Shown: positions 8,393 to 62,951 of the stretch, one piece after another
Numbering within the stretch: the first letter of the stretch is position 1
Layout of the letters: each line of letters opens with the position of its first letter
Assembly: GCF_011764445.1 (NCBI RefSeq)
Contig: NZ_BLPG01000001.1
Span: 2,666,001-2,730,000, forward strand
DNA: 64,000 nucleotides
DNA from: Phytohabitans rumicis
GTDB taxonomy: Bacteria > Actinomycetota > Actinomycetes > Mycobacteriales > Micromonosporaceae
Direction of reading: 5' to 3'
Made by a program: the position numbers and the translations under genes
The notes under the pieces: generated by a model
The model's input: the letters and a program-made list of their open reading frames with translations, nothing else
Databases searched by the model: none
Told to the model about the DNA's origin: nothing

Positions 8393-8468
8393 GATCAAGG
8401 ATTTGCGCGTCGATCAAGGGCAAACGGCCGTGGTTTGGAGATCAAAGCACGACCATATGCCCTTGATC
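8393..8468. repeat. GATCAAGG palindromic repeat, copy 1
   Basis: One upstream 19-bp half-unit (GATCAAGG at 8393) is followed by a 57-bp hairpin: arm 8412-8432, 15-base loop 8433-8447 (GTTTGGAGATCAAAG), arm 8448-8468 with three mismatches. It lies just beyond the 5' end of the 7524-8318 gene and overlaps the last codons of the 8414-11041 gene, for which it may act as a terminator. Five more copies lie in the window. Confidence 0.85.
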
Positions 8469-11041
8469 GACGGGGAAGGCGGCGCGCGGCGCGCGGCGCG
8501 CGCGGCGCGCAGCGGGGCGGGGGCGGGGTTAGAGGCGGCGGGGGGCTTCGTTGGGGCGGGGGCGGGCGGGCCTAGGCGGAGCTCGGCGTGCAGGACGGAC
8601 AGGCCGTCGGGGCGGGCCAGGACGGGGTTGAGGCGCAGCTCGCGGACCTGGGGTTGCTCGTCGGCCAGGCGGCCGACGCGGATCAGCAGGTCGGCCAGGG
8701 CGTCCCGGTCCACCGTGGCGGAGCCCCGGTAGCCGCGCAGCAGCGGCGCCGCGCGCGGCTCGTCCACCAGCGCGGCGGCGTCCCGGTCGGTCAGCGGGGC
8801 GGCCCGCCAGGCCCGGTCGCCGAGCAGGTCGGTGGCGACGCCGCCCAGCCCGAAGCCCACCACCGGGCCGAACGCCGGGTCCTCCACCATCTCCACCACG
8901 CACGCCACGCCCGGCGGGACCATCGACTGCACCAGCATCCCGGCGCCGAACGCTTCGGCCATCTCCGCGTACGCCTGGGCGACCGCGGCGGGGCCCGCCA
9001 GGTCGAGGCGTACCGCGCCGAGGTCGAGCCGGTGCCGCAGCGCCTCGCCGGCCGCCTTGAGGGCCACCGGGTAGCCCAGCCGTTCCGCCGCCGCGACGGC
9101 CTCCTCGGCCGACTCCGCCGGCAACGACGGGACCACCTCGATCCCGTACGCGGCCAGCACGTCGTACGACTCCACGGTGGACACGGGTGGGACGGTGCCC
9201 AGCGGTTGGCGCAGCCAGTCGGCGTACCCGCTGACCCGGCTCAGCGCGCGCACCGCCTCCTCCACCGACGGGTACGCCGCCACGCCCGCGGGCAGCTTTT
9301 CCACAAGGGACACCGCCACGGTCGGCTTGTCTCCGGCCAGCGCCACGCTCGCGATCGCCGTCGCGAAGTCGGCGTCCTCATCGGACAGTTGGCCGGGCAG
9401 CGGCGGCGCGAGCACCGCGACGAGCGCATCGACGTCGCCATCGGTGGCCGCGTCGGCGAGCGCGTCGCCGAACTCGTGCGCCCCCGCCTGGGGCGGCACA
9501 TCCAGCGGGTACCGGGAAACGACCACCAGCCCGCCGTCCCGGCACGCGGCGGCGGCCAGCCGGGTCAGCGCCGACGAGTTGCCCACGATGCCGACCCGCC
9601 GCCCGGCCGGCAGCGGTTGGTTGGCCAGCAGCACGCCGGCGTCGAAGAGCTCGGCCACGGTGTCGACGCGGATGACGCCTGAGTGGGCGAACAGCGCGGT
9701 CACGGCGCCCCGGTCCGGGCCCACCTCGCCCGGCGGGCGGGCCGGCGAGGCGACCACGACGATCGGCTTGGTACGCCCGATCCGGCGTGCCAGCCGGGCG
9801 AACTTGCGCGGGTTCCCGAACGTCTCCAGGTACAGCAGGATCACGTCGGTGCCGGGGTCGTCCTCCCAGTACTGCAGCAGGTCGTTGCCGGACACGTCGG
9901 CCCGGTTGCCCGCCGACACGAAGCTGGACAGGCCCAGCCCGCGCCGATCCGCCTCGGCCAGCAGCGCGACGCCCAACGCGCCGGACTGGCTGAAGAAGCC
10001 GGCCCGCCCCGGCAACGGCAGCTTCGGGGCGAGGGTGGCGTTGAGGCGTACCCGGTCGTTGGTGTTGGCCACGCCCAGACAGTTGGGGCCGACGACGCGC
10101 ATGCCCGCGGCGTGCGCCGCGCGGGTCAGCTCCTCCTGCGCCGCCGCGCCGGAAGGCGTACCCGTCTCGGCGAAGCCGGCCGACACCACGACGAGGCCGT
10201 GGACGCCGGCGGCGGCCGCGTCGGCGACGACGCCGGGCACCCGGTCCGGTGGCACCGCGACCACCGCGAGATCCACGTCGGTGGCGTCGCCGGCCGACCG
10301 CAGCGCCGGCAGCCCGGCCACGGTGGCGGCGGTGGGATGCACCGGGTGGATCGCGCCGCTGAACCCGCCGTCGCGCAGGTGCCCCAGGATGGCCGCGCCG
10401 ATGCCGTGCCCGCTGGAACTGGCGCCGTAGACGGCGACGCCGCGCGGGCGCAGCAGCCGGGCGATCGACCGGGCCTCGGCGCGCTGCTCGCGGCTCCACT
10501 GCACTTCAAGTGACTGCTCAGTCAGGGCGATCGGGAACGTGAGGTGGACGACGCCGTCGGCGTACTCGCGTTGGATCTGGTAGCCGGCGTCCGCGAAGAC
10601 CCGCAGCATGGTCGAGTTCGCCGGCAGCACCTCGGCCACGAACCGGCTGATGCCCGCGTCGCGCGCAGCCGCCGCCAGGTGCTCCAGCAGCACCGACCCG
10701 ATCCCCCGCCCCTGGTGCGCGTCCTCCACCACGAACGCCACCTCGGCGTCCGGCGCGTCCGGCCCCAGCCGCTCGTAGCGCCCGACCGCCAGGATCCGGC
10801 CGCCGGACTCGATGATCAGGGCCTCGCGCGCGTCGTGGTCGACGTTGACGAAACGGTGCAGGTCGCGTTCGGGGATCCGCGGGTACGGCGAGAAGTAGCG
10901 CAGGTAGCGGGTGCGCTCGGAGAACCGCGAGTGCATCGCCACAATGGCTGGCGCGTCCTCCGGCCCGATCTGTCGCAGGTGGACGGTGGAGCCGTCACTC
11001 AGCAGTACGTCCGCAGCTCGGTCGCGCACAGGTGGTGTCAC
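8414..11041 (-). CDS. GNAT acetyltransferase / NDP-forming acyl-CoA synthetase fusion (Pat-type)
   Basis: 875 residues. An N-terminal GNAT domain (about 10-165: EVAFVVEDAHQGRGIGSVLLEHLA is the acetyl-CoA loop) is fused to a CoA-binding domain (GVAVYGASSSGHGIGAAILGHL), a succinyl-CoA-ligase-like flavodoxin domain (GRAGFFSQSGALGVALL) and an ATP-grasp domain (YPVALKAAGEALRHRLDLG). This is the actinobacterial arrangement of the Pat/PatZ lysine acetyltransferases, which acetylate acyl-CoA synthetases and other enzymes; the synthetase part often acts as a sensor. The last 40 residues are Pro/Ala/Arg-rich and the final 18 plus the stop codon are encoded by repeat copy 1, so the original C-terminus appears replaced. 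Confidence 0.9.
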   Translation of the reverse strand: MTPPVRDRAADVLLSDGSTVHLRQIGPEDAPAIVAMHSRFSERTRYLRYFSPYPRIPERDLHRFVNVDHDAREALIIESGGRILAVGRYERLGPDAPDAEVAFVVEDAHQGRGIGSVLLEHLAAAARDAGISRFVAEVLPANSTMLRVFADAGYQIQREYADGVVHLTFPIALTEQSLEVQWSREQRAEARSIARLLRPRGVAVYGASSSGHGIGAAILGHLRDGGFSGAIHPVHPTAATVAGLPALRSAGDATDVDLAVVAVPPDRVPGVVADAAAAGVHGLVVVSAGFAETGTPSGAAAQEELTRAAHAAGMRVVGPNCLGVANTNDRVRLNATLAPKLPLPGRAGFFSQSGALGVALLAEADRRGLGLSSFVSAGNRADVSGNDLLQYWEDDPGTDVILLYLETFGNPRKFARLARRIGRTKPIVVVASPARPPGEVGPDRGAVTALFAHSGVIRVDTVAELFDAGVLLANQPLPAGRRVGIVGNSSALTRLAAAACRDGGLVVVSRYPLDVPPQAGAHEFGDALADAATDGDVDALVAVLAPPLPGQLSDEDADFATAIASVALAGDKPTVAVSLVEKLPAGVAAYPSVEEAVRALSRVSGYADWLRQPLGTVPPVSTVESYDVLAAYGIEVVPSLPAESAEEAVAAAERLGYPVALKAAGEALRHRLDLGAVRLDLAGPAAVAQAYAEMAEAFGAGMLVQSMVPPGVACVVEMVEDPAFGPVVGFGLGGVATDLLGDRAWRAAPLTDRDAAALVDEPRAAPLLRGYRGSATVDRDALADLLIRVGRLADEQPQVRELRLNPVLARPDGLSVLHAELRLGPPAPAPTKPPAASNPAPAPLRAARAARRAPPSPSIKGIWSCFDLQTTAVCP

Positions 11042-11092
11042 ATTTCCATCATCGCCTTGACCGCCCCTCGACGGTCACTAAAACGTGTCCCT

Positions 11093-14000
11093 GTGCCGGT
11101 CGAGCTGATTGTCGCCATCATCGGTGCCGTAGCCACGCTCGTGGGCGTCGGCTTCGGCTTCTACCAGTGGCGACGAGGACAAGGGCTGGACCGTGAGCGA
11201 CTCCGCCTCGAGCAGGCCCTCATCCGGGAGCAGAAGATCTGGGAGGAGGCTTGGGAGGAGGAACGGACGGCGGAACAGGAGTCGGCCCGGCAAGTCGCGC
11301 AAGCCGAAAAGATCCGCGACGCGGTGGAAAGATACCGAACCCTGCTCGCCAACGAGTTGGCCCAGCTCAAGATCCTCGATATGACCAAGCCGCTCGATCT
11401 AGAGGCGCTGTACGTCCAGCTTCGAGTGCGCGAGGACCGCCCAGCACGTTTCGCCAGCCCGGAAGAGATGGAGCCGCTGTCCTACGGCACGCCCGAACAT
11501 CTCCTGCAACTCTCGGCCAAGCAGTCCCGCGAAGCAGAGTCATCGGCCATGCGACCCGAGGACGCGCTACGCCGATTCGGACGGTTCGTGGCGCTCGGTG
11601 ACCCCGGCGCGGGCAAGACGACGATGCTGCGTCACCTGGCGCTGCGTCTGGCGCGCGGCGAGATCACGGAGGACTTGACCCTGCCGATCTACGTCGAGTT
11701 GCGCGAGTTCGTTGACAGCGGCGTATCGGACATCCTCGAGTTCGCTGCCGACACGTGCCGGCGACGGTACGGCTTCGTCAACGCGGTCGAGCACTTCGCC
11801 GAGCGGTTGGATGCCGGCTTGGCGGCGCTCCTGCTCGACGGGTTGGACGAGGTCCTCGGTGGTGCCGCAGCCGAGGACGCGGCGCGGGCATACCGGCGGG
11901 TCGTTGACGAAGTGGACCGGCTCTCCACCCGCTATCCCAGGGCCACCATCGCGGTAACCTGCCGCCGGGCCGGCTGGCAGGGCGGCCTGCGGGCATTCCA
12001 CACGGTGGAGGTGCTCGACTTCGGTTGGCCGCAGATCGAGACATTCGTCCGCAACTGGTTCGGCAACGAACCTGCTCGCGCCGATGCGCTAGTCACCGCG
12101 CTACAGACCAACCTGCGGGTCCAGACGCTGGCCGCCAACCCACTGATCTTGTCGTTGGTGGCCATCGTTTATGACCGCGACCTCGAACTGCCGGAACGTC
12201 GCGCCCAGCTCTATAACCGCTGCGTCGAGGTACTGCTCAAGGAGTGGGATACGCATCGCGGAATCCGCCGGTTTACCCGCTTTACCACCGACCGTAAGCG
12301 AGACCTACTTGAGGAGGTGGGCTGGCACTTCCATCAGCAAGGGCTGCGGTACTACCCACACGATGAGCTCTTGCGGGTGATAGCCGAATTCTTGCCGACG
12401 ATAGACATCGAACCCGTGCACGCCCAGGCAATCTTGGACGAGATCGCCGCCCAATACGGCCTGCTCAAGGTCCAGGCCAACGGCTGGTACGGCTTCCTAC
12501 ATCTCACCTTGCAGGAGTACTTCGCCGCCGTCGCCGCCACCGAGCGGGGAGCGCAGGCAGTGGCGCTCGTCGTCCAGCACCGTCACGACCCGTGGTGGGA
12601 GGAGGTGCTTTTCCTGCTCGCAGGTCGGACCGTGGACGCATCGCCGCTACTCCTCGGGATCCTCGGACGGGATCCGCTGAGTGCCGATCCACCTGTGCCC
12701 GACGCGCCTCTCGCGCTCGATGACGACGTTCTGCACCACGACCTTCTCCTCGCGGCTCGATGCCTGGCAGGGGCGCCTCGTGTGCGAGTCCCTTGGCTCC
12801 GCTCCGCGATCATCGAGGTCACCTATGAACTCGTCCGCACAGCACCATCGCCATCGATGTCTGAGTCGTCCGCGAGGATCCTGGTAGCCGCTGGCGGTCG
12901 CGCGATCCACGACCGACTAATCGACGATCTAATCAACCGACAGCTCGGGAGTGGGCCGCGCACATCGATCGCCAGAGCCCTGGGCACGGGCGGCGATGCC
13001 TATGTCGCGGCCCGGCTAACCGCCATACTCAGCTCTCGCGCGCTGGATAGCCGGCTAGCCTCGGCCGTAGCCGATTCGCTGCGAGCTCTCAGGCATTCGC
13101 CGGCCATCCCAGCCCTGCGTGCCCGCCTGGACCGGGAGTTGGTCGCCGACAGCAACGGTGCGTTCCCACTCGCGGCAGCAGTCGCGGCGCTCGGCGGAGC
13201 GAGCGGCGCCGCGCACCTCCGTCACCTCATCGACACGGCCGGCACCCGTCAGACCGCCAACGTTCTGATGTGGGCCCTGCAGTACTCGCGCGATCCGGCC
13301 GTCGAGAGGTGGCTCATCGAACGAGTCCCGGACAGCTCCGACGTGGGCATCGCGTTCATCGTGCACAGCTATCTCGCACTCACCGGCGCGGCAGGCGCCC
13401 CTCGCCTCCTCACCGCCCTGCTGAGCCGGCCCGGGTCGTGGGGCCCGAGCGTGTCGATCATCGTTTCTGCCTTCCACGAGCACGCCTCGCCATCGTTGGC
13501 CGTACAGCTTGTCGGTGCGCTCACCGATCCAGACCGCGATGCCAGCGTGCGATGGGCGGTCTCTGCTTTGCTGGACGACCAGCCCGAGATCTGGCCACTG
13601 GTTGCCAAGTGGATGGTCCGGCAGGACGCCGACCAGTTGACGGTGTGGGCGAGCGCCGCGGTGATCGGTAGCCATGGGTACGGGGCAGCCCGACAGCCGC
13701 TGCGTGACGCACTCACCGCGCTGACTGGCGAGGAGTGGGTTTCTACCGAGGAGATCGCCGTTCGCAACCTCGCCCTCCCTCGGATCACCGAATGCCTGGT
13801 CGCGCTTGGGGACGGCCAGTGGGCGCAGGACCTTCTCCTGACCCGCATCAACGCAATGTGGCAGGATGCCGCCACGCCGAACACGGCTGTTTTCGGCGCG
13901 CTCCTGGCGGCGCTCGGTCATACGGATATCGGGCCGCTGGCCGAGTGGTCTACCGGATTCCTCGACCATTTCCCGGCGCTGAGCGGCTACCTCCTGTACA

Positions 14001-14293
14001 AAGGCGCCGACGTGCGCCGCACGCTGCTCCATCCGTCGATCGCCCCACGCCTACTCGCCCGGGCAGAGTCCGAACTGCTCACGGACGAGGAGAGACATGC
14101 CGCCCTCGAACTGGTCGCGGCCATCGCGCAGGATGTGACGGTAGTGCCTCAGCTGCTTTCGCTCTGCTCCGTGAACGACGATGAGCTCGTCCGGCACGCC
14201 CTGGACGCCCTGGAAAACATTGGCAGGCACAATCGAGTCCGGATTTTCGCTGATGGCCGGATCGCCCCCGTCCAACCGCGAACTACACCGTAG
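11093..14293 (+). CDS. Membrane-anchored NACHT-domain STAND NTPase with C-terminal HEAT-like repeats
   Basis: 1066 residues from GTG 11093. Residues 4-24 (LIVAIIGAVATLVGVGFGFY) form one transmembrane helix, followed by a charged coiled-coil-like stretch (about 30-85). The NACHT NTPase has Walker A GDPGAGKTT at 169-177 and Walker B LLLDGLDE ending at 253, then a TCRRAGW sensor and a winged-helix-like region. From about residue 600 to the end the protein is alpha-helical with repeated short helix pairs (AVADSLRALRHSPAIPALRARL and similar), read as HEAT-like repeats. STAND NTPases of this type (bNACHT, Avs relatives) are known antiphage sensors, but no separate effector domain or gene is seen. 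It is divergent from the Pat-like gene with 51 bp between. Codon use looks slightly less GC-biased than its neighbours, which would fit transfer. Confidence 0.85.
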   Translation: MPVELIVAIIGAVATLVGVGFGFYQWRRGQGLDRERLRLEQALIREQKIWEEAWEEERTAEQESARQVAQAEKIRDAVERYRTLLANELAQLKILDMTKPLDLEALYVQLRVREDRPARFASPEEMEPLSYGTPEHLLQLSAKQSREAESSAMRPEDALRRFGRFVALGDPGAGKTTMLRHLALRLARGEITEDLTLPIYVELREFVDSGVSDILEFAADTCRRRYGFVNAVEHFAERLDAGLAALLLDGLDEVLGGAAAEDAARAYRRVVDEVDRLSTRYPRATIAVTCRRAGWQGGLRAFHTVEVLDFGWPQIETFVRNWFGNEPARADALVTALQTNLRVQTLAANPLILSLVAIVYDRDLELPERRAQLYNRCVEVLLKEWDTHRGIRRFTRFTTDRKRDLLEEVGWHFHQQGLRYYPHDELLRVIAEFLPTIDIEPVHAQAILDEIAAQYGLLKVQANGWYGFLHLTLQEYFAAVAATERGAQAVALVVQHRHDPWWEEVLFLLAGRTVDASPLLLGILGRDPLSADPPVPDAPLALDDDVLHHDLLLAARCLAGAPRVRVPWLRSAIIEVTYELVRTAPSPSMSESSARILVAAGGRAIHDRLIDDLINRQLGSGPRTSIARALGTGGDAYVAARLTAILSSRALDSRLASAVADSLRALRHSPAIPALRARLDRELVADSNGAFPLAAAVAALGGASGAAHLRHLIDTAGTRQTANVLMWALQYSRDPAVERWLIERVPDSSDVGIAFIVHSYLALTGAAGAPRLLTALLSRPGSWGPSVSIIVSAFHEHASPSLAVQLVGALTDPDRDASVRWAVSALLDDQPEIWPLVAKWMVRQDADQLTVWASAAVIGSHGYGAARQPLRDALTALTGEEWVSTEEIAVRNLALPRITECLVALGDGQWAQDLLLTRINAMWQDAATPNTAVFGALLAALGHTDIGPLAEWSTGFLDHFPALSGYLLYKGADVRRTLLHPSIAPRLLARAESELLTDEERHAALELVAAIAQDVTVVPQLLSLCSVNDDELVRHALDALENIGRHNRVRIFADGRIAPVQPRTTP

Positions 14294-14297
14294 GTGG

Positions 14298-34118: not shown

Positions 34119-34251
34119 GATCAAGGCCCTGCGCGCCGATCAAGGACTTGTGCGTCGATCAAGGACTTGTGCGTCGATCAAGGGCATATGGCCGTGCTTC
34201 GATCTCAAAACCACGGCCGTTTGCCCTTGATCGACGCGGAATTCCTTGATC
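34119..34251. repeat. GATCAAGG palindromic repeat, copy 2 (inverted orientation)
   Basis: Three upstream units at 34119, 34138 and 34157 precede the hairpin, each exactly 19 bp apart. The hairpin has arms 34176-34196 and 34212-34232 and a 15-base loop (34197-34211). A fourth, inverted unit (CCTTGATC 34244-34251) follows at the same spacing. The loop CTTCGATCTCAAAAC is close to the reverse complement of the other loops, so this copy is inserted the other way round. It lies 3' of malic enzyme. Confidence 0.88.
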
Positions 34252-34407
34252 GACGTCGGGAGAGCCCGCCGCCCCTGCCCCGGTGAGGGCCGCGGCACCG
34301 CGCCGCCAGTACCCGCCCGCGCCGCGCCGCGAGAAACCCCGCCGCCCCGCGCCGCCGTTCCGGCGGCGCGGGGCGGCACCGGGGAACGGCGCCCGCTCGT
34401 CCGCGTC

Positions 34408-34502
34408 GATCAAGGCCCTCTGCGTCGATCAAGGGCATACGGCCGTGGTTTGGAGATCAAAGCACGACCGTATGCCCTTGATCGACGGGCAAGTCCTTGA
34501 TC
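34408..34502. repeat. GATCAAGG palindromic repeat, copy 3
   Basis: One upstream unit (34408), hairpin arms 34427-34447 and 34463-34483 with loop 34448-34462 identical to copy 1, and one downstream inverted unit (34495-34502), all on the 19-bp spacing. Together with copy 2 it fills the gap between convergent genes. The stretch 34252-34407 is GC-rich and holds no gene. Confidence 0.88.
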
Positions 34503-34612
34503 GACGCGGCAAGGGCCTGCCGCACGACGCGGCAAGGGCCTGCCGCACGACGCGGCGCACGACGCGGCAGGGGCCCGACGCGCGGCGGTGCAAGGGCCTG
34601 CCGCGCGACGGC
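34503..34612. repeat. 23-bp tandem repeat and degenerate copies
   Basis: Two exact 23-base units (34503-34525 and 34526-34548; GACGCGGCAAGGGCCTGCCG and CAC) are followed by shortened variants to 34612. Each unit holds its own small palindrome (GGCAAGGGCCTGCC). It fills the space between repeat copy 3 and the stop of the lipoprotein gene. No coding frame is plausible. Confidence 0.7.
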
Positions 34613-49524: not shown

Positions 49525-49638
49525 GTTCAAGGCCCGCCGCGTCGATCAAGGACTTTGACGCCGATCAAGGGCAAACGGCCGTGGATCGGAGATCAAAGCA
49601 CGGCCGTTTGCCCTTGATCGGCGTCAAAGTCCTTGATC
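49525..49638. repeat. GATCAAGG palindromic repeat, copy 4
   Basis: Units at 49525 (GTTCAAGG, one mismatch) and 49544, then hairpin arms 49563-49583 and 49599-49619, which are perfect over 21 bases, with loop GATCGGAGATCAAAG, then an inverted unit at 49631-49638, all on the 19-bp spacing. It is 23 bases beyond the gluD stop. Confidence 0.9.
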
Positions 49639-49850
49639 GCCGTACGGATGGAGAGCCGGGCGACGAGCCGCCCCCCTCTCGCCCACGACCGGCATCAAAG
49701 TCGACGACAAGGGCACCCTTCTCACGCGACAACACCCAACCGGGGCACCCCACTGGGGTGGGCGCCGCCCGCGAACGCCACACATGCGCTGCACGAACGC
49801 CGCCACGGGCGACCCCGAGGGCCCTCGCACACCCCTCCGCGACCTTCGTC

Positions 49851-49945
49851 GATCAAGGAAAAGCCCGTCGATCAAGGGCAAACGGTCGTGGATCGGAGAT
49901 CAAAGCACGGCCGTTTGCCCTTGATCGACGCGGCGGGCCTTGATC
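49851..49945. repeat. GATCAAGG palindromic repeat, copy 5
   Basis: Unit at 49851, hairpin arms 49870-49890 and 49906-49926 with one mismatch, the same loop as copy 4, and inverted unit 49938-49945. A degraded unit (CCTTGATG) follows at 49974. The stretch 49639-49850 between copies 4 and 5 holds no gene. Confidence 0.9.
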
Positions 49946-50015
49946 GACGCGGGCCAGCGCAGCACGCGGCGGGCCTTGATGGACGCGGTGGGCCGGCGCA
50001 GCGCGGGGCGGGGAG

Positions 50016-50079
50016 AGTGCACGGCGGGGAGAGTGCACGGCGGGGAGAGTGCACGGCGGGGAGAGTGCGCGGGGCGGGG
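50016..50079. repeat. 16-bp tandem repeat
   Basis: Three exact units AGTGCACGGCGGGGAG (50016-50031, 50032-50047, 50048-50063) plus a partial fourth lie between copy 5 and the rny stop at 50091. Slippage-prone; no coding meaning is apparent. Confidence 0.8.
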
Positions 50080-50090
50080 AGTGGGCCGTG

Positions 50091-51869
50091 TTAGCGGGCG
50101 ATCTCGGTTACCCGGGACTCGCGGACCACCGTCACCCGGATCTGGCCGGGGTACGTCAGTTCCTCCTCGATCTGCTTGGCCACGTCCCGGGCCAGCACCG
50201 CCGCGCCGATGTCGTCGACGTCGTCCGGCTTGACCATCACCCGGATCTCGCGCCCGGCCTGCATCGCGAAGACCTTCTCCACGCCCGACTTTCCGCCGGC
50301 GATCTCCTCGATCCGCTCCAGCCGGTTGACGTACGCCTCCAGGCTCTCCCGCCGCGCCCCCGGCCGCCCGCCGGAGCAGGCGTCGGACGCCTGCGTGAGA
50401 ACCGCTTCGATGGTTTGCGGCGTGACCTCGTTGTGGTGCGCTTCGATCGCGTGGACCACCTCTTCGGACTCGCCGAACTTGCGGGCCAGGTCGGCGCCGA
50501 TCAGCGCGTGGCTGCCCTCCACCTCGTGGGTGAGCGCCTTGCCGATGTCGTGCAGGAACGCGCACCGCTTGATGATCTGGGCGTCCAGCCGCAGCTCGGC
50601 GGCCATGATGCCGGCGATGTGGGCGGTCTCGACGAGGTGCTTGAGCACGTTCTGCCCGTACGAGGTCCGGTAGCGCAGCCGCCCCAGCAGCGTCATCAGC
50701 TCGGGGTGCATGTCCGTGATCCCGACCTCCACCAGCGCGTCCTCCGCCGCGCGCTCGCATAGCCGTTCCACCTCGTGCTTGGCGGTCTCGAAGACCTCCT
50801 CGATGCGGTGCGGGTGGATCCGCCCGTCGAGCACCAGCTTTTCCAGGGTGAGCCGGCCGATTTCCCGGCGTACCGGGTCGAAGCAGGACAGCAGCACCGC
50901 CTCGGGCGTGTCATCGATGATCAGGTTCACGCCGGTCACCGACTCGAACGCGCGGATGTTGCGCCCCTCGCGCCCGATGATCCGGCCCTTCATCTCGTCG
51001 CCGGGCAGGTGCAGGACGCTGACCACGCTCTCCGCGGTCTGCTCGCTGGCCACCCGCTGGATCGCGTCCACCACGATGTGCCGGGCGCGCTGCTCGGCGG
51101 TGTTGCGGGCGTCGCTCTCGATGTCCCGGACGAGCAGCGCCGCCTCCCGCTTGGCCTGGCCCTCGATGGCCTCGACCAGCTCGGCGCGCGCCGCGTCCAC
51201 GGTCAGCCCGGCGATCCGTTCCAGCTCGCGCCGGCGTACCACCTCGGCCTCGGCCAGCGTCGACTCGCGCGCGAGGAGCGCCGCCTCCCGGTCGGTGAGC
51301 TCGGCCTCCGCCGCCGCGGTCCGGCGGTCGCGCTCGGCCAGCCGGTCGGCCTCCTCTCTGTGCAGCCGCTCCCGGTCGTCGATCCGCGAGGTCCGGCGTT
51401 CCAGCTCGGCGGCCTGCTCCTTGGCGGCCTCGGTCAGCATGGCGATCTCCCGCTCGCCGCTGCGCCGCGCCGCCGTCCGCACCTGCTCGGCGTCCGTTTC
51501 GGCCTGCCGGTGGGCCCGTTCGAGGATGGTGTCCGCTTCGGCCCGCGCCGTGTCGAGCACGCGGCGGGCCTCCGCCCGGGCCGCGCGCGCCTCGGCCTTG
51601 GCCTCCGCGGCGTCCGTGCGGGCGGTGGTCGCGGCCGTCTTGGCCTGCTCCACCGCCGACGACGCCTCGCCCGCCGCGCTGCGCAGCGCGGCCAGGGACT
51701 GCTCCTGCCGGTCCAGCTCCGCCGTGTACGCCGGGTCGTCGACCCGCGCCGTCGCCGGCTGGAACGCGGTGAGTCCGCGCAACGCCCGCGCCCCAAAAAC
51801 AAGACCGCCGAGCACGAGTACGGCCAGCGCCAGCACCGCGATCAGCAGTACTGCCTCTACCCCGCCCAT
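50091..51869 (-). CDS. rny: Ribonuclease Y
   Basis: 592 residues. One N-terminal transmembrane helix (VLLIAVLALAVLVLGGLVFGA) anchors it at the membrane; a long coiled coil (about 50-260, Ala/Glu/Arg-rich) follows. The KH domain is GRIIGREGRNIRAFESVTGV and the HD domain holds AFLHDIGKALTHEVEGSHA and HHNEVTPQT. It starts endonucleolytic mRNA decay. In this group it often lies near recA-recX, as here; 453 bp separate it from the next gene. Confidence 0.95.
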   Translation of the reverse strand: MGGVEAVLLIAVLALAVLVLGGLVFGARALRGLTAFQPATARVDDPAYTAELDRQEQSLAALRSAAGEASSAVEQAKTAATTARTDAAEAKAEARAARAEARRVLDTARAEADTILERAHRQAETDAEQVRTAARRSGEREIAMLTEAAKEQAAELERRTSRIDDRERLHREEADRLAERDRRTAAAEAELTDREAALLARESTLAEAEVVRRRELERIAGLTVDAARAELVEAIEGQAKREAALLVRDIESDARNTAEQRARHIVVDAIQRVASEQTAESVVSVLHLPGDEMKGRIIGREGRNIRAFESVTGVNLIIDDTPEAVLLSCFDPVRREIGRLTLEKLVLDGRIHPHRIEEVFETAKHEVERLCERAAEDALVEVGITDMHPELMTLLGRLRYRTSYGQNVLKHLVETAHIAGIMAAELRLDAQIIKRCAFLHDIGKALTHEVEGSHALIGADLARKFGESEEVVHAIEAHHNEVTPQTIEAVLTQASDACSGGRPGARRESLEAYVNRLERIEEIAGGKSGVEKVFAMQAGREIRVMVKPDDVDDIGAAVLARDVAKQIEEELTYPGQIRVTVVRESRVTEIAR

Positions 51870-54840: not shown

Positions 54841-54843
54841 TAG

Positions 54844-55087: not shown

Positions 55088-55101
55088 CCGGCAAAACTAG
55101 C

Positions 55102-55913: not shown

Positions 55914-56407
55914 GCTGCACCACTTTCTACGGAGGATTGATGAGCCGGCCCGAGGTGCGCCGCCAACTCCTGGCGCCCGCGGTGCAGCCACGACAGGACC
56001 GTGCCCTTCGGCACGTCGAGCTGTGCGGCGACCTCGGCCACGGGCAGGTCGGCGATGTAGTGCAGGACCAGCGCCCGCCGGTGTCTGTCGGGGATCCGCT
56101 GCAGCCCGGCCACGAGCGCGACGTGATCCGGGCGTACAGGCTCCGCGTCGGCCCGCCCGAGCAGGCGCAACCGCACGCGCGCCGCCATCAGCAGGTGGCG
56201 CCACCGGCTGGCCGCCAGGTTCCAGGCGACCTTGCGCACCCAGGCGATCGGGTCCTCGTACCCGCTCACCGCGTCCCAGCGCTGCCAGGCCCGCAGGAAC
56301 GCCTCTTGAACCACGTCCTCGGCCTCCGCCGCGTCGCCGAGGTAGGCGTACAGCTGCGCCGCGAGCGGACCGTACCGGCTCCGGTAGAAGGCTTCGAAGT
56401 CATTCAC
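55910..56407 (-). CDS. ECF sigma factor, SigE-like family
   Basis: 165 residues. Region 2 (FYRSRYGPLAAQLYAYLGD, EAEDVVQEAFLRAWQRWD) and region 4 (LVLHYIADLPVAEVAAQLDVPKGTVLSWLHRGR) are canonical for an ECF factor of the SigE-family group common in Micromonosporaceae. No zinc-binding anti-sigma gene is next to it; the coupled membrane protein downstream is the only candidate partner. Confidence 0.92.
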   Translation of the reverse strand: MNDFEAFYRSRYGPLAAQLYAYLGDAAEAEDVVQEAFLRAWQRWDAVSGYEDPIAWVRKVAWNLAASRWRHLLMAARVRLRLLGRADAEPVRPDHVALVAGLQRIPDRHRRALVLHYIADLPVAEVAAQLDVPKGTVLSWLHRGRQELAAHLGPAHQSSVESGAA

Positions 56408-56434
56408 AACCAGATAGACGCCCGAGGCGCCCGT

Positions 56435-57667
56435 TCAATTGCGGGCCGGCGCGGGCCGCAGCGCGAGGGCGGTCAGCGGCACGGTCGCGATCGCCGCGAG
56501 CAGGGTCAGCGCGGCGTACCCGCTCAGCTCCACCACGAGCCCGCTGAGCGCACCCGCCGACGCCCCCGCCAGCCCCGTCACCAGGTCGGACAGGCCCTGC
56601 GCGGCCGGGCGCACCTCGATCGGCACCGACTCGGACAGCAGCGTCGAGCCGGCCACCATCGTGCAGGACCAACCAAGTCCAACGAGGACGAGACCGGCCG
56701 AAAGCCGTACCGTGTCGTGCCCCGCCGTCCCGGCCACCGCGCACGCGACGAGCAGCACCGCGACGCCGCAGAGGATGACCGGCCGGCGGCCGAGCCGGTC
56801 GGTGAGCAGCCCGACCACCGGCGACAGCGCGTACATCCCGGCGATGTGCAGGCTCAGCACGATGCCGACCACGCGCAGCACGTCCGCTTCGCCGTGCGAC
56901 TCCCCGATGTGCACCGGCGTCATCGTCATGACCCCGACCATGACCAGGTGACCGACGGCAACGGCCGCCACGCCGAGCCGGGCCGCGGGCCGCTCGGCCA
57001 CCGCCCGCAGCGCAAGCCCAAAAGAGCCGCGCGCAGGTGCCCGCACGGCCTCCGCGGCGCGCCGCGCGGCCAGCAGTGGGTCGGGCCGCAACAGCAGCAC
57101 GAGTACGCCGGCCGCCAGACCGAATGCGACGGCGCTGAACACGAACGGCCCCGCCAGCGCCGGCACGGCCAGCCCGTGCACGGCGTCATCGGCGAGCGAG
57201 GCGAAGTTGGGCGCGGCCACCGCGCCGATGGTGGTCGCCCAGACGACCAGCGACAGGTCCCGGCCCCGCGAGGACGGCGACGCCAGGTCCACGGCCGCGT
57301 ACCGGGCCTGCAGGTTGGCCGCGGTCCCGCCGCCGAAGAGCAGCATGCCCACGAAGAGCAGCGGCACCCACCGGGTCACCGCGGCGGTCACGACCAGCGC
57401 GCCGCCCACGGCCCCGACGGTGTACGCGGTGGCCAGGCCCCAGCGCCGGCCGCGGGCGTTGGTGATCCGGGTGACCGGCACCGCCAGCAACGCCGCCCCG
57501 ACGACGGCGGCGCTCGCGGCGAGGCCGGAGATACCGGTGCCGCCGAGCCGGGCGGCGAGCAGCGCGCCGACGGAGAAGCCGATGGCGACACCCATCCCGC
57601 CGATGATCTGCGTGCAGAAGAGCACCCGTAAGGTGCGCCGCTGGACGTCCTCCAAAACCAGGGTCAC
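56435..57667 (-). CDS. MFS transporter
   Basis: 410 residues with 12 hydrophobic segments. The A-motif-like stretch after TM2 (VPVTRITNARGRRWGLATAY) and LLTDRLGRRPVILCG after TM8 are typical of MFS drug-type exporters. GTG 57667 overlaps the acyl-CoA dehydrogenase stop as GTGA, so it is translationally coupled. Substrate unknown. Confidence 0.88.
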   Translation of the reverse strand: MTLVLEDVQRRTLRVLFCTQIIGGMGVAIGFSVGALLAARLGGTGISGLAASAAVVGAALLAVPVTRITNARGRRWGLATAYTVGAVGGALVVTAAVTRWVPLLFVGMLLFGGGTAANLQARYAAVDLASPSSRGRDLSLVVWATTIGAVAAPNFASLADDAVHGLAVPALAGPFVFSAVAFGLAAGVLVLLLRPDPLLAARRAAEAVRAPARGSFGLALRAVAERPAARLGVAAVAVGHLVMVGVMTMTPVHIGESHGEADVLRVVGIVLSLHIAGMYALSPVVGLLTDRLGRRPVILCGVAVLLVACAVAGTAGHDTVRLSAGLVLVGLGWSCTMVAGSTLLSESVPIEVRPAAQGLSDLVTGLAGASAGALSGLVVELSGYAALTLLAAIATVPLTALALRPAPARN

Positions 57668-58806
57668 AGCCCGAGACTACGGCCGATGATCTCTTTCATG
57701 ATCTCGGTGGTGCCGCCGTAGATGGTCTGCACCCGGCTGTTCAGCCACGCCTTGGCCACCGGGTACTCCAGCATGTAGCCGTACCCGCCATGCAGCTGGA
57801 CGCACCGGTCGGCCACCTTGTTCTGCAGCTCGGTGGTCCACCACTTGGCCTTCGCGGCGTCCACCACGGTCAGCCGGCCCTCGTTGAACTCCCGGATGCA
57901 GTGGTTGAGGAACGTCCGCGCGATCGTCACCTCGGTGTCCAGCTCGGCCAGCAGGAACCGGTTGTGCTGGAACCTCCCGATCGGCCGCCCGAACGCCTCG
58001 CGGGTCCCCGCGTACTCCAGGGTGATGGCCAGCAGCCGCTCGCAGGCGGCGACGGCGGCCACCGCGATGCTGAGCCGCTCCCGGGGCAGGTTGCCCATCA
58101 GGTGGTAGAAGCCGTGGTTCTCGGTGCCGATGAGGTTGTCGGTGGGCACCCGGCAGTCGTCGAAGAAGAGCTCGGCGGTGTCGTTCGCTTTCTGGCCCAC
58201 CTTCTCCAGCCGGCGGCCGCGGCTGAAGCCGGGCGTGCCGCGCTCGACCGCGATCAGGCTCACGCCGTGGGCACCCTCGTCGGGCGCGGTCTTGGCGACG
58301 ATCACGACCAGGTCGGCCATGTCGCCGTTGGTGATGAACGTCTTCTGTCCATTGAGGACGTACGAGGAGCCGTCGCGCACCGCCGACGTACGCACGCCGG
58401 CGAGGTCGGAACCCGCGCCCGGCTCGCTCATCGCGATGGCGGTGACGATGTCGCCGGAGCAGAACCCGGGCAGCCACCGCTTGCGCTGCTCCTCGGTGCT
58501 CAGGTCGGTCAGGTACGGCGCCACGACGTCGTTGTGCAGCCCGAACCCGAGCCCGGAGCAGCCCGAGCCGACGATCTCCTCGACCAGCACCGCGTTGAAG
58601 CGGAAGTCGCGCTGACCGCCGCCGCCGTACTCCTCGGCGACGTCCATGCCGAGCAGCCCGGTGGCGCCCGCCTTGCGCCAGACCTCGCGGTCCACGATGC
58701 CGGCGTCTTCCCACGCGGCGTGGTGTGGCACCGCCTCCCGGGCCAGGAACTCCCGGCACAGCGCGCGGAACTCCTCGTGGATCGGGTCGTACAGCTGCTG
58801 CTCCAT
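57664..58806 (-). CDS. Acyl-CoA dehydrogenase
   Basis: 380 residues from ATG 58806. FAD/substrate motifs: AIAMSEPGAGSDLAGVRTSA, FITNGDMADLVVIVA, QLHGGYGYMLEYPV and the C-terminal IYGGTTEIMKEIIGRSL. The YGGT variant (not YEGT) means the catalytic Glu is elsewhere, as in long-chain and isovaleryl enzymes. It oxidises acyl-CoA in fatty or branched acid breakdown. Coupled to the MFS gene. Confidence 0.93.
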   Translation of the reverse strand: MEQQLYDPIHEEFRALCREFLAREAVPHHAAWEDAGIVDREVWRKAGATGLLGMDVAEEYGGGGQRDFRFNAVLVEEIVGSGCSGLGFGLHNDVVAPYLTDLSTEEQRKRWLPGFCSGDIVTAIAMSEPGAGSDLAGVRTSAVRDGSSYVLNGQKTFITNGDMADLVVIVAKTAPDEGAHGVSLIAVERGTPGFSRGRRLEKVGQKANDTAELFFDDCRVPTDNLIGTENHGFYHLMGNLPRERLSIAVAAVAACERLLAITLEYAGTREAFGRPIGRFQHNRFLLAELDTEVTIARTFLNHCIREFNEGRLTVVDAAKAKWWTTELQNKVADRCVQLHGGYGYMLEYPVAKAWLNSRVQTIYGGTTEIMKEIIGRSLGL

Positions 58807-58811
58807 GCCTC

Positions 58812-59450
58812 TCAGTTCAGCACGCGAGCCGCCACGGTCAAGTCCGCGACCAAACCGTTGTACGCGATCTCCTGGTTGTCGGCGCGCAGCACCGCCGACG
58901 GGTGGATGGTGGCGACCAGCTTGGCCGGCGCAGCGAAGTCCTGCGGGCGCTGGGCCGAGTCGGGCCAGGGCAGCACCCGGCCGCGCGACTGGGTGACCCG
59001 GAACGACGGCCCGAGCAGCGCCTTGGCCGCGGTCGCGCCGAGCACCACCACGACCTGCGGCCGCAGCAGCGAAAACTCGGCGACCAGCCAGGGCCGGCAC
59101 GCCTCGATGTGGGTGCGGTCGGGCGTCTGGTGGATGCGCCGCCTGCCCCGCAGCTCGAACCGGAAGTGCTTGACAGAGTTCGTGATGTACAGCTGGCGCG
59201 GGTCCATGCCGGCGGCGTCGACCGCGCGCCGCAGCAGGTGCCCGGCCGGCCCGACGAACGGCAGGCCCTTCTGGTCCTCCACGTCACCCGGCTGCTCGCC
59301 GACGAACACCACCCGGGCGTGCGTGTCACCCCGCCCGAAGACCGTCTGCGTGGCGCCCTCGTGCAGCTCGCAGCCCTTGCACGACGCCGCGGCGGCCTTC
59401 AGCTCGTCGAGCGTCCGCGCGCCGTCGGGGACGAAATCCTGGGCAGTCAC
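58812..59450 (-). CDS. UdgX-type uracil-DNA glycosylase
   Basis: 212 residues. It shows the family 4-like GEQPGDVEDQKGLPFVGPAG and IHPSAVLRA motifs, plus the RGRRRIHQTP loop matching the KRRIH loop that distinguishes UdgX. In UdgX the His of that loop forms a covalent bond with the abasic sugar. It removes uracil from DNA and stays bound. GTG start overlaps the MocR gene stop as GTGA; five bases from the acyl-CoA dehydrogenase start. Confidence 0.9.
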   Translation of the reverse strand: MTAQDFVPDGARTLDELKAAAASCKGCELHEGATQTVFGRGDTHARVVFVGEQPGDVEDQKGLPFVGPAGHLLRRAVDAAGMDPRQLYITNSVKHFRFELRGRRRIHQTPDRTHIEACRPWLVAEFSLLRPQVVVVLGATAAKALLGPSFRVTQSRGRVLPWPDSAQRPQDFAAPAKLVATIHPSAVLRADNQEIAYNGLVADLTVAARVLN

Positions 59451-60796
59451 CTGAATGTTCTACCCCATTCCGGCGCGGAAGATGCGGCGGCCGCGACCGC
59501 GTCGGCCACCGCCGCGATGTCCGCCTCGGACAGCGGGCTCACCGTGATCCGGATGCCCTGCGCGGTGCGCTGCCGGTACAGGGCGCCGGGCGCCACCGCG
59601 TACCCGCTGTCGCGCAGTGCCGTGACAGCGCGCGTCTCGTCGGGGACCTCGACCCAGACGTTGATGCCGGTCCGCGCGTGCGCGACCAGGCCGTGGGCGG
59701 TGAGCGCCGCGTGCAGCGCGTCCCGCCGCCGGTCGTAGCTCGCGCCGGCCGCGGCCACCCCGGCCGCGACGGACCGGTCGGTCCACACCCGCATCACCAG
59801 CCGCTGCAGCAGCGTGGAGACCCAGCCGGCGCCGATCCGCATCCGGCCGGCCACGCGCGCGACCGTGGCCTCGTCGCCCGCGAGCGCGGCGACGCGCAGG
59901 TCCGGGCCGTAAGGCTTCGAGGCCGACCGCACGAACGCCCAGGTCCGCGTCGCCCCAGCCAGCGGACACAGGGGTACGTCGGCCAGCTCGGCCGCGTGGT
60001 CGTCCTCGATGAGCAGCACGTCCGGGTGCCCGCCCAGCACCTCGCGCAGGGCGGCCGCCCGGGGCACGGTGACCGCGGCGCCGGTCGGGTTCTGCGCGCG
60101 GGTGGTGACCACGACGGCCCGGGCGCCCGCGGCGAGCGCGGTCCGCAGGCCGGCGGGCGTGGGCCCATCCCCATCCACGGGTACGGGTACGGCGCGCAGC
60201 CCGAGCGCGGCGACCAGGTCGAGGAGGTTGGCCCAGCCGGGATCCTCGACCGCGACCGGGTCGCCGGGGCGCAGGTGCGCCGCCAGCAGCCGGTCGATGC
60301 CGTCGAGCGCCCCGCTGGTGACCGTGACGGCCGGCGCGTCCACCCCGTCAGCCGTCAGGCGGGACCGGACCAGCTCCGCCAGGTCGGGCAGGACGCCGGC
60401 GTCGCCGTACCCGATGGGGGTCTGCGATTGGGTGGCGATGGCCGCGAGGTGCGGACCGAGCGGCGGCAGCAGCCTGGCGTCGGGCTCTCCGGAGGAGAGG
60501 TCGAGCACGCCGGCCGGGACCGCCGGGCGGAGCATGCCGCGGCTGGAAACGACCGGCGGGCGCGGGCGGACCCGCGTGCCGTTGCGGCCCGCGGTCTCGA
60601 TCACCCCGCGCTGCCGCAGCGTCTGGTACGCCTTCGCGACCGTCCCCGGGCTGACGCCGAGCAGGTCGGCGAGCGCCCGGACGGCCGGCAGCGGGGCCCC
60701 GGCCGGCAGCCCGCCGGTGCGCACGCCCGACTCCACGCTGGCCGAAATCTCGGCGGACGTGCTCCCGGCGATCTGATAATGTACCGACACAGTCAC
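59447..60796 (-). CDS. MocR-family (GntR-aminotransferase) regulator
   Basis: 449 residues. GntR-type winged HTH at the N-terminus (PAVRALADLLGVSPGTVAKAYQTLRQRGVIE), then an AAT-I fold with VTSGALDGIDRLL, LIEDDHAAEL and the PLP lysine in FVRSASKPYGPDLR. MocR/PdxR proteins sense PLP or amino compounds and often control the divergent gene; here that gene is a flavin/PLP-oxidase-like fusion. GTG start lies 29 bp from it. Confidence 0.92.
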   Translation of the reverse strand: MTVSVHYQIAGSTSAEISASVESGVRTGGLPAGAPLPAVRALADLLGVSPGTVAKAYQTLRQRGVIETAGRNGTRVRPRPPVVSSRGMLRPAVPAGVLDLSSGEPDARLLPPLGPHLAAIATQSQTPIGYGDAGVLPDLAELVRSRLTADGVDAPAVTVTSGALDGIDRLLAAHLRPGDPVAVEDPGWANLLDLVAALGLRAVPVPVDGDGPTPAGLRTALAAGARAVVVTTRAQNPTGAAVTVPRAAALREVLGGHPDVLLIEDDHAAELADVPLCPLAGATRTWAFVRSASKPYGPDLRVAALAGDEATVARVAGRMRIGAGWVSTLLQRLVMRVWTDRSVAAGVAAAGASYDRRRDALHAALTAHGLVAHARTGINVWVEVPDETRAVTALRDSGYAVAPGALYRQRTAQGIRITVSPLSEADIAAVADAVAAAASSAPEWGRTFR

Positions 60797-60825
60797 AGTT
60801 TTGTACTATAACAAAGGGGGCGCGG
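60797..60825. promoter_or_regulatory. Shared MocR/fusion-gene promoter
   Basis: Only 29 bases separate the two divergent starts. The centre reads TTTTGTACTATAACAAAG: a TTGT-ACTATA-ACAA palindrome. TATAGT on the minus strand and TACTAT on the plus strand are overlapping -10-like hexamers; the MocR transcript would be nearly leaderless. The palindrome is a possible MocR site. Confidence 0.5.
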
Positions 60826-62061
60826 GTGTACGAGCAGACGCACCGCACGACCGCCAACCGCGACCGTGGCCGGGTCGCCTACGAGCGCGCCACCGCGCAC
60901 GCGATCATCGACGAGGCGTACCACTGCGCGATGGGATTCACCGTGGACGGTGAGCCGCGGGTGCTGCCGACGCTGCACGTGCGCGTGGGCGAGACGGTGT
61001 ACCTGCACGGCTCCACCGGCAGCCGCCCCCTGCTCGCCGCCCGCGGCGAGGACGGCCTGCGCGTCTGCCTGACCGTGACCCACCTCGACGGCCTGGTGTA
61101 CGCCCGCTCCCAGATGCACCACAGCGCCAACTACCGCTCCGTCGTCGCGCACGGCACCGCCCGGCTCGTCACCACCGAGGCGGAGAAGCGGCTCGCCATG
61201 ACCGCCCTGATCGAAAAGGTCGGCCGCGGCCGGGCCGCGCAGACCCGCCCGCCGAACCGCAAGGAGCTCGCCGAGACCGCCGTGCTGGCGCTGACGCTGC
61301 GCGAGGTCTCGGTCAAGGCGCGGGTGGGCGGCGTGATCGACGACGAAGAGGACCTCGCGCTGCCGTACTGGGCGGGCGTGCTGCCGCTGCGCCTCACCCC
61401 CGGCCTGCCCGAGCCCGACGCCGGCGTGACCGTGCCGGTCCCGGGCTACCTGCGCGCGCCCCGCTCCCCCTGGCTCACTCCGGCCCCCATGCGCGGCGAC
61501 CACGTCCTGCTGGAGCCCCTGGATCTGTCCCATGTGGACGATCTGTTCGCCGCGACCCGCGACGCCATGGTGTGGACCCACCTGACCAGCCCGCAGCCGC
61601 GCGACCTCGCCGAGATGCGGGCGTTCGTGGCCGGCGTGCTCCAGACTCCCGAGCGGGTGGCCTGGGTGCAGCGCGACGCCCGCTCCCTCGAGGTTGCCGG
61701 CGTGACGCAGTACGTCTATCCCGACGAGGCCGGTCGCACCCTGGAGATCGGCGGCACCTTCCTCGGCCGGCGGTGGTGGCGCACCGGCGTCAACACCGAG
61801 GCCAAGCTGCTGCTGCTCACCCGGGCGTTCGAGGAGCTGGGCGCCGTGCGGGTCACCTGGCAGACCGACATCCGCAACGAGCGCTCGCAGGCGGCCATCG
61901 CCCGGCTCGGCGCGGTCCGCGAGGGCGTCCTGCGGTCCAACCGGCGCCGCGGCGACGGCTCCTGGCGCGACTCCGTCCTCTACTCGGTGACCGCCACGGA
62001 ATGGCCCCAGGTCGGTGCCACCCTGCGGAAAAAGCTTCGCGCTCCAGCGGTCGTGGGGTGA
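60826..62061 (+). CDS. NimA-like flavin-binding domain / GNAT acetyltransferase fusion
   Basis: 411 residues. Residues 1-200 form a pyridoxamine 5'-phosphate oxidase-like split barrel of the nitroimidazole-resistance type (HAIIDEAYHCAMGFTVDGEP, PLLAARGEDGLRVCLTVTHL, YRSVVAHGTARLV). From about 215 a GNAT domain follows (VLLEPLDLSHVDDL, GGTFLGRRWWRTGVNTEAKLL, NERSQAAIARLGAVREGV) like RimJ/RimL N-acetyltransferases. The combination suggests a detoxification enzyme. It is divergent from the MocR gene. GTG start with GGGGG before it. Confidence 0.88.
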   Translation: MYEQTHRTTANRDRGRVAYERATAHAIIDEAYHCAMGFTVDGEPRVLPTLHVRVGETVYLHGSTGSRPLLAARGEDGLRVCLTVTHLDGLVYARSQMHHSANYRSVVAHGTARLVTTEAEKRLAMTALIEKVGRGRAAQTRPPNRKELAETAVLALTLREVSVKARVGGVIDDEEDLALPYWAGVLPLRLTPGLPEPDAGVTVPVPGYLRAPRSPWLTPAPMRGDHVLLEPLDLSHVDDLFAATRDAMVWTHLTSPQPRDLAEMRAFVAGVLQTPERVAWVQRDARSLEVAGVTQYVYPDEAGRTLEIGGTFLGRRWWRTGVNTEAKLLLLTRAFEELGAVRVTWQTDIRNERSQAAIARLGAVREGVLRSNRRRGDGSWRDSVLYSVTATEWPQVGATLRKKLRAPAVVG

Positions 62062-62068
62062 GGATGGC

Positions 62069-62706
62069 GTGGTGCTGGGGATCACCGACATCTGGACGTA
62101 CGTACTGGGCACCATCGCGATCATCCTGCTGCCCGGGCCCAACTCGCTCTTCGTGCTCTCCACGGCGGCCCGGCGCGGCGTGCCGTCCGGCTACCGGGCC
62201 GCGGCGGGCGTCTTCCTCGGCGACACGGTGCTCATGGTGCTCTCGGCGGGCGGGGTCGCCTCGCTCCTGAAGGCGTACCCGCCGCTCTTCCTCGTGATCA
62301 AGTACGCGGGCGCGGCGTACCTGGGCTACGTGGGCCTGTCGATGCTGTGGCGCGCCTGGCGCCGCCCTCGCCAGCCGCAGCGGCACCCGCCCCGCCTCCC
62401 GTCCCGCACGCGTTCCGGCGGGCCGCCGTGATCAGCCTGCTCAACCCGAAGGCGATCCTGTTCTTCATCTCCTTCTTCATCCAGTTCGTCGACCCGCAGT
62501 ACGCGTACCCGGCCCTGTCGTTCCTGCTACTGGGCCTGATCGCGCAGGTGGTGAGCGTCCTCTACCTGACGCTGCTGATCTTCATGGGCACCTACCTGGC
62601 CACCCAGTTCCGCCGTCGCCGCCGGCTGGCCGCGGGTGCCACCAGCGCGGTGGGCGCCTTGTTCGTCGGCTTCGGCATCAAGCTAGCCACCGCCACCTCC
62701 GCCTAA
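62069..62706 (+). pseudogene. LysE/RhtB-family amino acid exporter, one frameshift
   Basis: From GTG 62069, the first frame has TDIWTYVLGTIAIILLPGPN and LKAYPPLFLVIKYAGAAYLG; the second frame from about 62347 has FRRAAVISLLNPKAILFFIS and LLGLIAQVVSVLYLTLL. Together they make a full LeuE-like exporter of about 212 residues with six helices. The shift lies between 62350 and 62430 in a Pro/Ala/Arg-rich loop and needs one added base. Eight bases downstream of the fusion gene. Likely sequencing deletion. Confidence 0.82.
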
Positions 62707-62723
62707 CGCCTTCCTTCCCCCGC

Positions 62724-62789
62724 CGCGGTGATCATGAAGTTAGCGTTGGAGAGAGCGCTCTCCGCGACGCTAGCTTCATGATCACCGCG
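62724..62789. terminator. Long hairpin after the LysE gene
   Basis: Arms of about 30 bases (starting CGCGGTGATCATGAAG at 62724, ending at 62789) pair with a few mismatches, centred on GAGCGCTC. It follows the LysE stop by 17 bases. No poly-U tail. Confidence 0.75.
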
Positions 62790-62835
62790 CGGGGTGGGCC
62801 TCGCGGCTCGCGGCTCGCGCCCCGCGGCTCGCGTC

Positions 62836-62951
62836 GATCAAGGATCTGCGCGTCGATCAAGGGCAAATGGTCGTGGAAAAGAGATCCAAGCGCGGCCATA
62901 TGCCCTTGATCGACGGGAAAGTCCTTGATCGACGCGGGACGGGCCTTGATC
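62836..62951. repeat. GATCAAGG palindromic repeat, copy 6
   Basis: Unit at 62836, hairpin arms 62855-62875 and 62891-62911 with a diverged loop GAAAAGAGATCCAAG, inverted units at 62923 (19-bp spacing) and 62944 (21-bp). The most diverged copy. Downstream 62952-63048 holds no gene. Confidence 0.85.

Follow-up and report, generated by a model that had tools for sequence, protein, structure and literature searches.

The 64-kb window studied here (64,000 nucleotides; C1:2666001-2730000 of the 10.7-Mb genome of Phytohabitans rumicis, referred to as G000) carries six copies of a long palindromic repeat. This repeat is a real, lineage-amplified element that resembles REPINs, a class of repetitive extragenic palindromic (REP) sequences, and it is unusual in its polarity, in the free variation of its arms and in the signature of its flanks. 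The unit has a direction, and in each of two species of the genus it is present in hundreds of copies. The arms differ by species and most sites are not the same in the two; the copies lie mainly in gaps that hold the 3′ end of a gene, above all in convergent gaps. How REP-like repeats spread, and whether the host makes use of them, is a long-standing puzzle. The present family exceeds 500 copies in a genus in which the usual transposase was not detected, has relatives in which no exact core was found, and offers some readable empty sites and a measurable flank signature. Such features make an alternative mobiliser and use as a terminator directly testable.

Anatomy and polarity of the repeat

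The window contains 31 occurrences of the motif GATCAAGG, where 1.02 would be expected; none of 100 shuffles reached 31. Most of these occurrences cluster into six palindromes. Each contains a core, GATCAAGG-N41-CCTTGATC, that is exactly 57 bp long at 6/6 sites and is flanked by outer GATCAAGG units in 19-bp phase (Table 1). The preliminary description of this DNA, which had proposed six palindromes built on one plan, is borne out by these counts. Chance or low complexity as the source of the repeats is ruled out by the same figures and by a reversed control pattern, which gave no match. Both strands of three of the six copies were folded, with energies of -45.2 to -51.8 kcal/mol (z -6.3 to -9.6).

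In the whole of G000 the exact 57-bp core occurs 558 times (reversed control pattern, 0), so the family is not one of few copies. Relaxing the spacing of the ends to 28-58 bases gave 595 matches; most copies therefore keep one spacing. A sample for closer reading was drawn from the window plus a further 1.6 Mb of G000, together 1.664 Mb, and from 29 of 30 further genome loci, one locus being left out, and yielded 132 oriented cores. Copies were found by at most one mismatch in each GATCAAGG end together with a GATC motif in the loop, a rule under which strongly decayed copies go uncounted. A copy with the loop GAGATC on the + strand was called F, otherwise R, and two copies with undeterminable loop orientation were left out.

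Read in the orientation of the element, an exact GATCAAGG outer unit lies 19 bp upstream of the core in 129/132 copies; this unit was not used for finding them. On the downstream side, an exact inverted outer unit ends 19 bp from the core in 54/132 copies, or in 56/132 if one mismatch is allowed. The outer unit is thus near-fixed upstream and optional downstream, and the element therefore has polarity. The strict 19-bp phase, earlier described for both sides of the hairpin, holds for the upstream side but not for the downstream one. The consensus of 101 copies gives the layout CG(T)C, 19-bp outer unit, 57-bp core and GACG, about 84 bp in total. CGTC (positions -3 to 0; 98/100/73/98% conserved) faces GACG (positions +1 to +4; 100/82/97/99%) and lengthens the stem, which in the core comprises about 21 bp around a loop of about 15 nt. 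The consensus flanks show neither a GTAG tag nor a CCA tail.

Conservation reaches at least 97% at 41/57 core positions of the 132 copies. As 21 of these 41 served to find or orient the copies, the fair figure is 20 conserved among the remaining 36 positions. Near-invariance in the loop is limited to GAGATC and the (R)AA after it, and the conserved 15-base loop of the preliminary description shrinks to these positions; its estimate of about eight GATC per copy was too high, since the exact units and the loop GATC give 4 to 7. The variable arm positions 11, 12, 14, 17 and 20 use the same alphabets as their mirrors 47, 46, 44, 41 and 38, with position 12/46 almost only A or T. Among the 132 copies 121 distinct cores occur.

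Gene context and orientation

Gene gaps were taken from our own ad hoc codon-usage gene caller, which is not a published tool, and 103 G000 copies from the fetched regions were placed on them; 7/103 fell outside called gaps and were left out of the context counts. The 96 intergenic copies divide into 49 convergent, 38 tandem and 9 divergent, where 16.6, 50.1 and 29.3 are expected from gap length. Convergent gaps are thus enriched threefold (p about 4e-14). Counted by gap, copies occupy 37/197 convergent, 31/732 tandem and 8/243 divergent gaps, and the contrast between convergent gaps and all others (39/975) is again strong (p about 2e-11). In all, 87/96 intergenic copies are in convergent or tandem gaps. 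The proposal of a dispersed, REP-like extragenic family with a 3′-end bias is upheld by the 558 cores and by this enrichment, but the placement of all copies at 3′ ends of genes is a strong bias and not a rule, since nine copies lie between divergent genes. In the window, convergent gene pairs bracket copies 2 and 3 (34037/34621) and copies 4 and 5 (49501/50091), so that both pairs do share one gap each, as had been noted, while copies 1 and 6 lie between same-strand genes, close to a gene's 3′ end.

Copies less than 2 kb apart in G000 form 20 RF, 0 FR, 3 FF and 4 RR pairs, and the genus-mate G004 has 2 RF, 0 FR and 2 RR; copies 2 and 3 of the window are one such RF pair within a single convergent gap. 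Not all RF pairs lie in convergent gaps: 5 are in tandem gaps and 1 is in a divergent gap. Where genes converge, the orientation of a copy tracks the nearer gene (38 vs 11). The gaps spanned by RF pairs often contain other palindromes. Thirteen close RF pairs were displayed, with inner lengths of 129-552 bp, and no common cargo was seen in them by eye; the enclosed open reading frames (ORFs) were not scanned against family libraries. Palindromes of the form GTGAGTAGGG(C)GCCCC were observed at C1 4123284, 4417659 and 2580894 of G000, several such palindromes being nested within RF pairs.

Copies are unevenly spread. A 400-kb region (C1 7000001-7400000) holds none. Hairpins of any kind in its gaps number 8 per 114 kb, against 129 per 135 kb and 42 per 65 kb in two other regions, and a 20-kb piece of this region shows little conservation across the genus. 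A role as a tag of replication direction was ruled out: in one 59-copy allele subset there is no strand bias by side of dnaA, which lies at 4.435 Mb (14 to 13 and 12 to 16; the 55 copies on contig C1 were counted by eye and the 4 on C2 excluded).

Independent variation of the two arms

The copies have a mean of 19.235 Watson-Crick pairs out of 22, and shuffling the right arms among copies leaves this value at 19.190 (sd 0.074). The observed pairing was reached in 581/2000 arm shuffles, and in 237/1000 when G-U pairs were allowed. The hairpin still forms, because most pairs are invariant. Among left-right pairs of variable positions only 1/25 reaches p 0.01, while neighbouring loop positions associate in 9/15 (132 copies). 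In the earlier set of 101 copies, 10/120 position pairs had z above 4, and none of these was a mirrored arm pair. Pairing as such bears no visible mark of selection. This absence of arm covariation is the main result against a plain terminator view, and it speaks against the usual assumption that palindromes of this kind owe their maintenance to an RNA hairpin. It favours either a protein that recognises each half or halves that reassort freely from copy to copy.

Skew and repeats in the flanks

Over about 150 bp, the DNA is C-rich to the left and G-rich to the right of the copies. We scored 60 of 69 copies, leaving out those with short flanks, and the right skew exceeds the left in 59/60. The same holds for 31/31 single-copy gaps, compared with 146/316 random positions in copy-free gaps. 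All 15 copies read (of 40 matched) in G234, a genome of another genus, have the C-left/G-right skew as well. Gene direction was ruled out as its cause: convergent, tandem and divergent gaps show much the same skew, and control gaps show none. Being symmetric under reversal, it carries no information on orientation. Other hairpins in copy-free gaps of G000 show the same direction in 14/22 cases.

The flanks are also repetitive. More than 15% repeated 6-mers were found in 37/103 flank windows against 4/389 controls. This excess is partly compositional (GC 0.75 vs 0.67); measured over a shuffle of each window itself, it is 0.072 vs 0.007. Of the 20 tandem-repeat rows in the 64-kb window, 11 are at or beside copies 1, 2, 3, 5 and 6 and 9 are elsewhere.

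Distribution in relatives and empty sites

The named relatives traced through a malic-enzyme-like protein of the window belong mainly to Micromonospora, Actinoplanes and other Micromonosporaceae (63 loci), and the window is largely syntenic in five genus-mates (in G004 only a part was compared). G004 has 398 exact cores. The exact core pattern has no match in G001, G003 and G005, and one unrelated match in G002. Sixteen oriented G004 cores read GCACG where G000 has GGYCG, and the change is mirrored in both arms. In a protein tree built on seven genes, G004 branches outside a group of G000 and the other four genus-mates (support 83), and those four group together (100). We infer that the family is older than the split of the genus and was then lost or replaced in the four genus-mates; horizontal gain is also possible. 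G003 has a palindrome family of its own, with the loop TTCTAG and variable arms (for example at C8:60542), which gave 103 matches there and 0 in the other five genus genomes.

The 57-bp pattern is present in 9/250 genomes of the family, and in number only in G000, G004, G032 (22) and G041 (39, with another inner sequence). At looser spacing, palindromes match in 51/397 genomes of the order, and all genomes with ten or more matches belong to family f1. Genus g4, represented by G234, has the arm GATCAAGGAGTTNGCGTC and a mostly free loop, so that arms are kept while loops vary widely: GAGATC is kept in the loop of 3/15 copies read, and the outer unit at -19 appears in 0/15 of the displayed flanks. 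The g4 form was found at 1/63 named loci, in Micromonospora yasonensis, and on this ground g4 is taken to be Micromonospora.

Comparison of 280 kb of G004 with 400 kb of G000 gave 143 conserved gene adjacencies. Copies occupy 6 of them in G004 and 6 in G000, and 2 adjacencies are common to these two sets; the copies at the two shared sites have opposite orientation. At three of the eight unshared gaps the partner lacking a copy is short (G004 1 bp vs G000 157 bp, G000 94 bp vs G004 289 bp, and G000 31 bp vs G004 412 bp), and in all three the extra DNA comes after the stop codon.

Comparison with known repeats

REPINs and GTAG-REPs are tied to REP-associated tyrosine transposases (RAYTs), according to the sections used here of Bertels and Rainey (2011, PMC3116915). 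The present element shares with REPINs, as presented in those sections, many extragenic copies, inverted half-units in one hairpin and species-specific amplification; in our data this corresponds to 558 copies, 96/103 in gaps, and three folds. It differs in the lack of GTAG, in its core stem of about 21 bp with a one-sided 19-bp outer unit, and in the transposase. A Y1/RAYT transposase (PF01797, Y1_Tnp) was found in 0/6 genus genomes by a search whose control matched in 5/14, no other transposase family being searched genome-wide. A REP mobilised by a RAYT is thereby ruled out, and the suggestion to look for a RAYT-type partner ended negatively. The statement that no transposase is nearby holds for the 10 window proteins checked (8 with a Pfam family) and, genome-wide, for Y1_Tnp.

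CGTC-REPs, in the portions of Di Nocera et al. (2013, PMC3733652) drawn on here, combine an 8-9 bp stem and a loop of 4-5 with a tag that stays unpaired and a CCA-like tail. They lie mostly between convergent and same-strand genes, form predominantly dimers of opposite orientation and are there given no known dedicated transposase; the word 'actinobacteria' is absent from the main text of that paper. Our element also has CGTC directly ahead of the palindrome, a 3′-end bias and dimers of opposite orientation, and the likeness in transposase is that of the Y1 search. Unlike CGTC-REPs, it has a stem of about 21 bp, a loop of about 15 nt, a CGTC paired with GACG and no CCA tail. As neither the short stem with its unpaired tag nor the RAYT link was found, we file the element with neither class, although it works like both. 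With intrinsic bidirectional terminators it shares a strong hairpin on both strands, a position near 3′ ends and enrichment between convergent genes; it departs from them in that a T-run is lacking, hundreds of copies share one standard sequence, the arms do not covary and the polarity is fixed.

The earlier impression that the repeat matches no named family was confirmed within the sources consulted. A known RNA family is ruled out for the window at the Rfam gathering threshold (weaker matches were not searched), and one copy used as a query had no match in plasmid or phage records, which speaks against a plasmid- or phage-borne repeat. In the literature, judged by titles and abstract openings among the matches listed, the repeat is not described.

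Favoured reading and alternatives

The reading that we favour, and hold to be probable though far from secure, is a non-autonomous, REPIN-like extragenic palindromic element of Micromonosporaceae that is spread in trans and is used or tolerated as a putative bidirectional 3′-end terminator or insulator. Its spread would depend on a trans-acting enzyme other than Y1, which would recognise near-invariant positions along the entire footprint. Once in a 3′ gap, the long hairpin, approached from each side through C-rich sequence of the transcribed strand, could act as a bidirectional terminator or insulator, or be tolerated as such, and the C-rich approach possibly serves Rho on transcripts from both sides. 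The flanking repeats may grow through slippage at the stalled hairpin.

Several observations weigh against this reading. The lack of arm covariation in the 132 copies is unexpected if pairing itself is selected. The consensus has no T-run 3′ of the hairpin, and the sequence after the core begins GACGGGGAAGGCC. No mobilising enzyme was identified. Tandem gaps show no orientation bias relative to the gene (21 vs 17), in contrast to the bias in convergent gaps. The copy-free 400-kb region, with its poorly conserved piece, makes recent unrestrained mobility unlikely. For the eight unshared gaps, five have a long empty partner (325-1748 bp), so insertion is not shown there, and at the three short empty sites no target-site duplication is readable, as the junctions are too diverged. 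The skew direction recurs at 10/14 other hairpins in the relatives' regions; with the figure for G000 also considered, the skew is strongest around the element family, and a weaker tendency of hairpins in general may exist.

The element may alternatively be the binding site of a candidate sequence-specific DNA-binding protein (nucleoid, domain-boundary or replication-related), with selection acting on the invariant bases of the double-stranded half-sites and not on the hairpin. This would account for arms that vary at mirrored positions with mirrored alphabets and yet independently, for the A or T at position 12/46, which is consistent with degenerate contacts, for a polarity and 19-bp phase fixed on one side, and for G234, which retains the arms while its loops vary. 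We nevertheless consider it unlikely: there is no candidate protein, a chromosome-organising site has no need of a strong 3′-end bias, the six genus genomes include three without a core and one with a single unrelated match, and strand bias by side of dnaA is lacking in the 59-copy subset. If the copies were ordinary bidirectional terminators, formed in place and homogenised by gene conversion without any movement, the 3′-end and convergent bias would be explained. The other inverted repeats at the gap of copies 2 and 3 in relatives (G002 and G001; by eye also G003 and, more weakly, G005) agree with this, and the near-complete lack of arm association fits frequent conversion. Such an origin is quite doubtful in view of occupied sites mostly unshared between G000 and G004, the three short empty sites, the absence of covariation, and a fixed polarity and outer unit that a terminator does not need.

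A longer inverted-repeat mobile unit, such as a miniature inverted-repeat transposable element (MITE) or a transposon-like unit, would have R..F pairs as its two ends and single copies as solo ends. The excess of RF over FR pairs in both species, their presence in tandem and divergent gaps and the palindromes within them are as expected from such a unit. Against it stand the variable inner lengths, with no common inner sequence seen by eye, the longer RF pairs, which enclose ORFs not scanned against family libraries, and the many single copies, so that we regard it as very improbable. A more far-reaching reading is a directional Micromonosporaceae element class in which non-RAYT machinery acting on double-stranded half-sites spreads and homogenises copies, arms reassort, and an origin-like C-to-G skew switch accompanies slippage repeats. 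This reading is rather unlikely; if true, a non-RAYT half-site element class would shape many 3′ intergenic regions of some species.

Coordinates and neighbouring features

Table 1. Repeat copies and flanking tandem repeats in the 64-kb window
Feature	Position	Strand	Core	Details
Copy 1	8393..8472	+	8412-8468	Orientation F (loop GAGATC on + strand); outer unit 8393-8411; GACG tail
Copy 2	34119..34255	-	34176-34232	Orientation R; own outer unit to 34251; three extra left 19-bp units (34119, 34138, 34157)
Copy 3	34408..34506	+	34427-34483	Orientation F; outer unit 34408; inverted outer unit to 34502
Copy 4	49525..49642	+	49563-49619	Orientation F; degenerate unit 49525 (GTTCAAGG); outer unit 49544; inverted outer unit to 49638
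Copy 5	49851..49949	+	49870-49926	Orientation F; outer unit 49851; inverted outer unit to 49945
Copy 6	62836..62955	+	62855-62911	Orientation F; outer unit 62836; inverted units ending 62930 and 62951
G/C-rich tandem repeat	8482..8514			Flanks copy 1
23-bp and 12-bp tandem repeats	34502..34611			Flank copy 3
19-, 36- and 16-bp tandem repeats	49919..50083			At and after right end of copy 5
7-bp tandem repeat	62800..62833			Flanks copy 6

Some neighbours of the copies deserve mention. The stop codon of ORF 8414-11029 (- strand) is supplied by copy 1, and relatives stop near 8530 (by eye); copy 1 may have lengthened this reading frame, or the ORF call may be spurious. Just ahead of copy 6, at 62724-62789, lies a member of a second palindrome family (TGATCATGAAGTTAGCG...), also present at C1 2540302 and 2308188 of G000; its cluster has 13 members in two hairpin-rich regions of that genome. 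Copies 4 and 5 adjoin a gene (50091-51869) for a 592-aa protein with RNase Y N-terminal and HD domains, whose G001 orthologue appears as two overlapping matching pieces (G001:C1:9297711-9299485).

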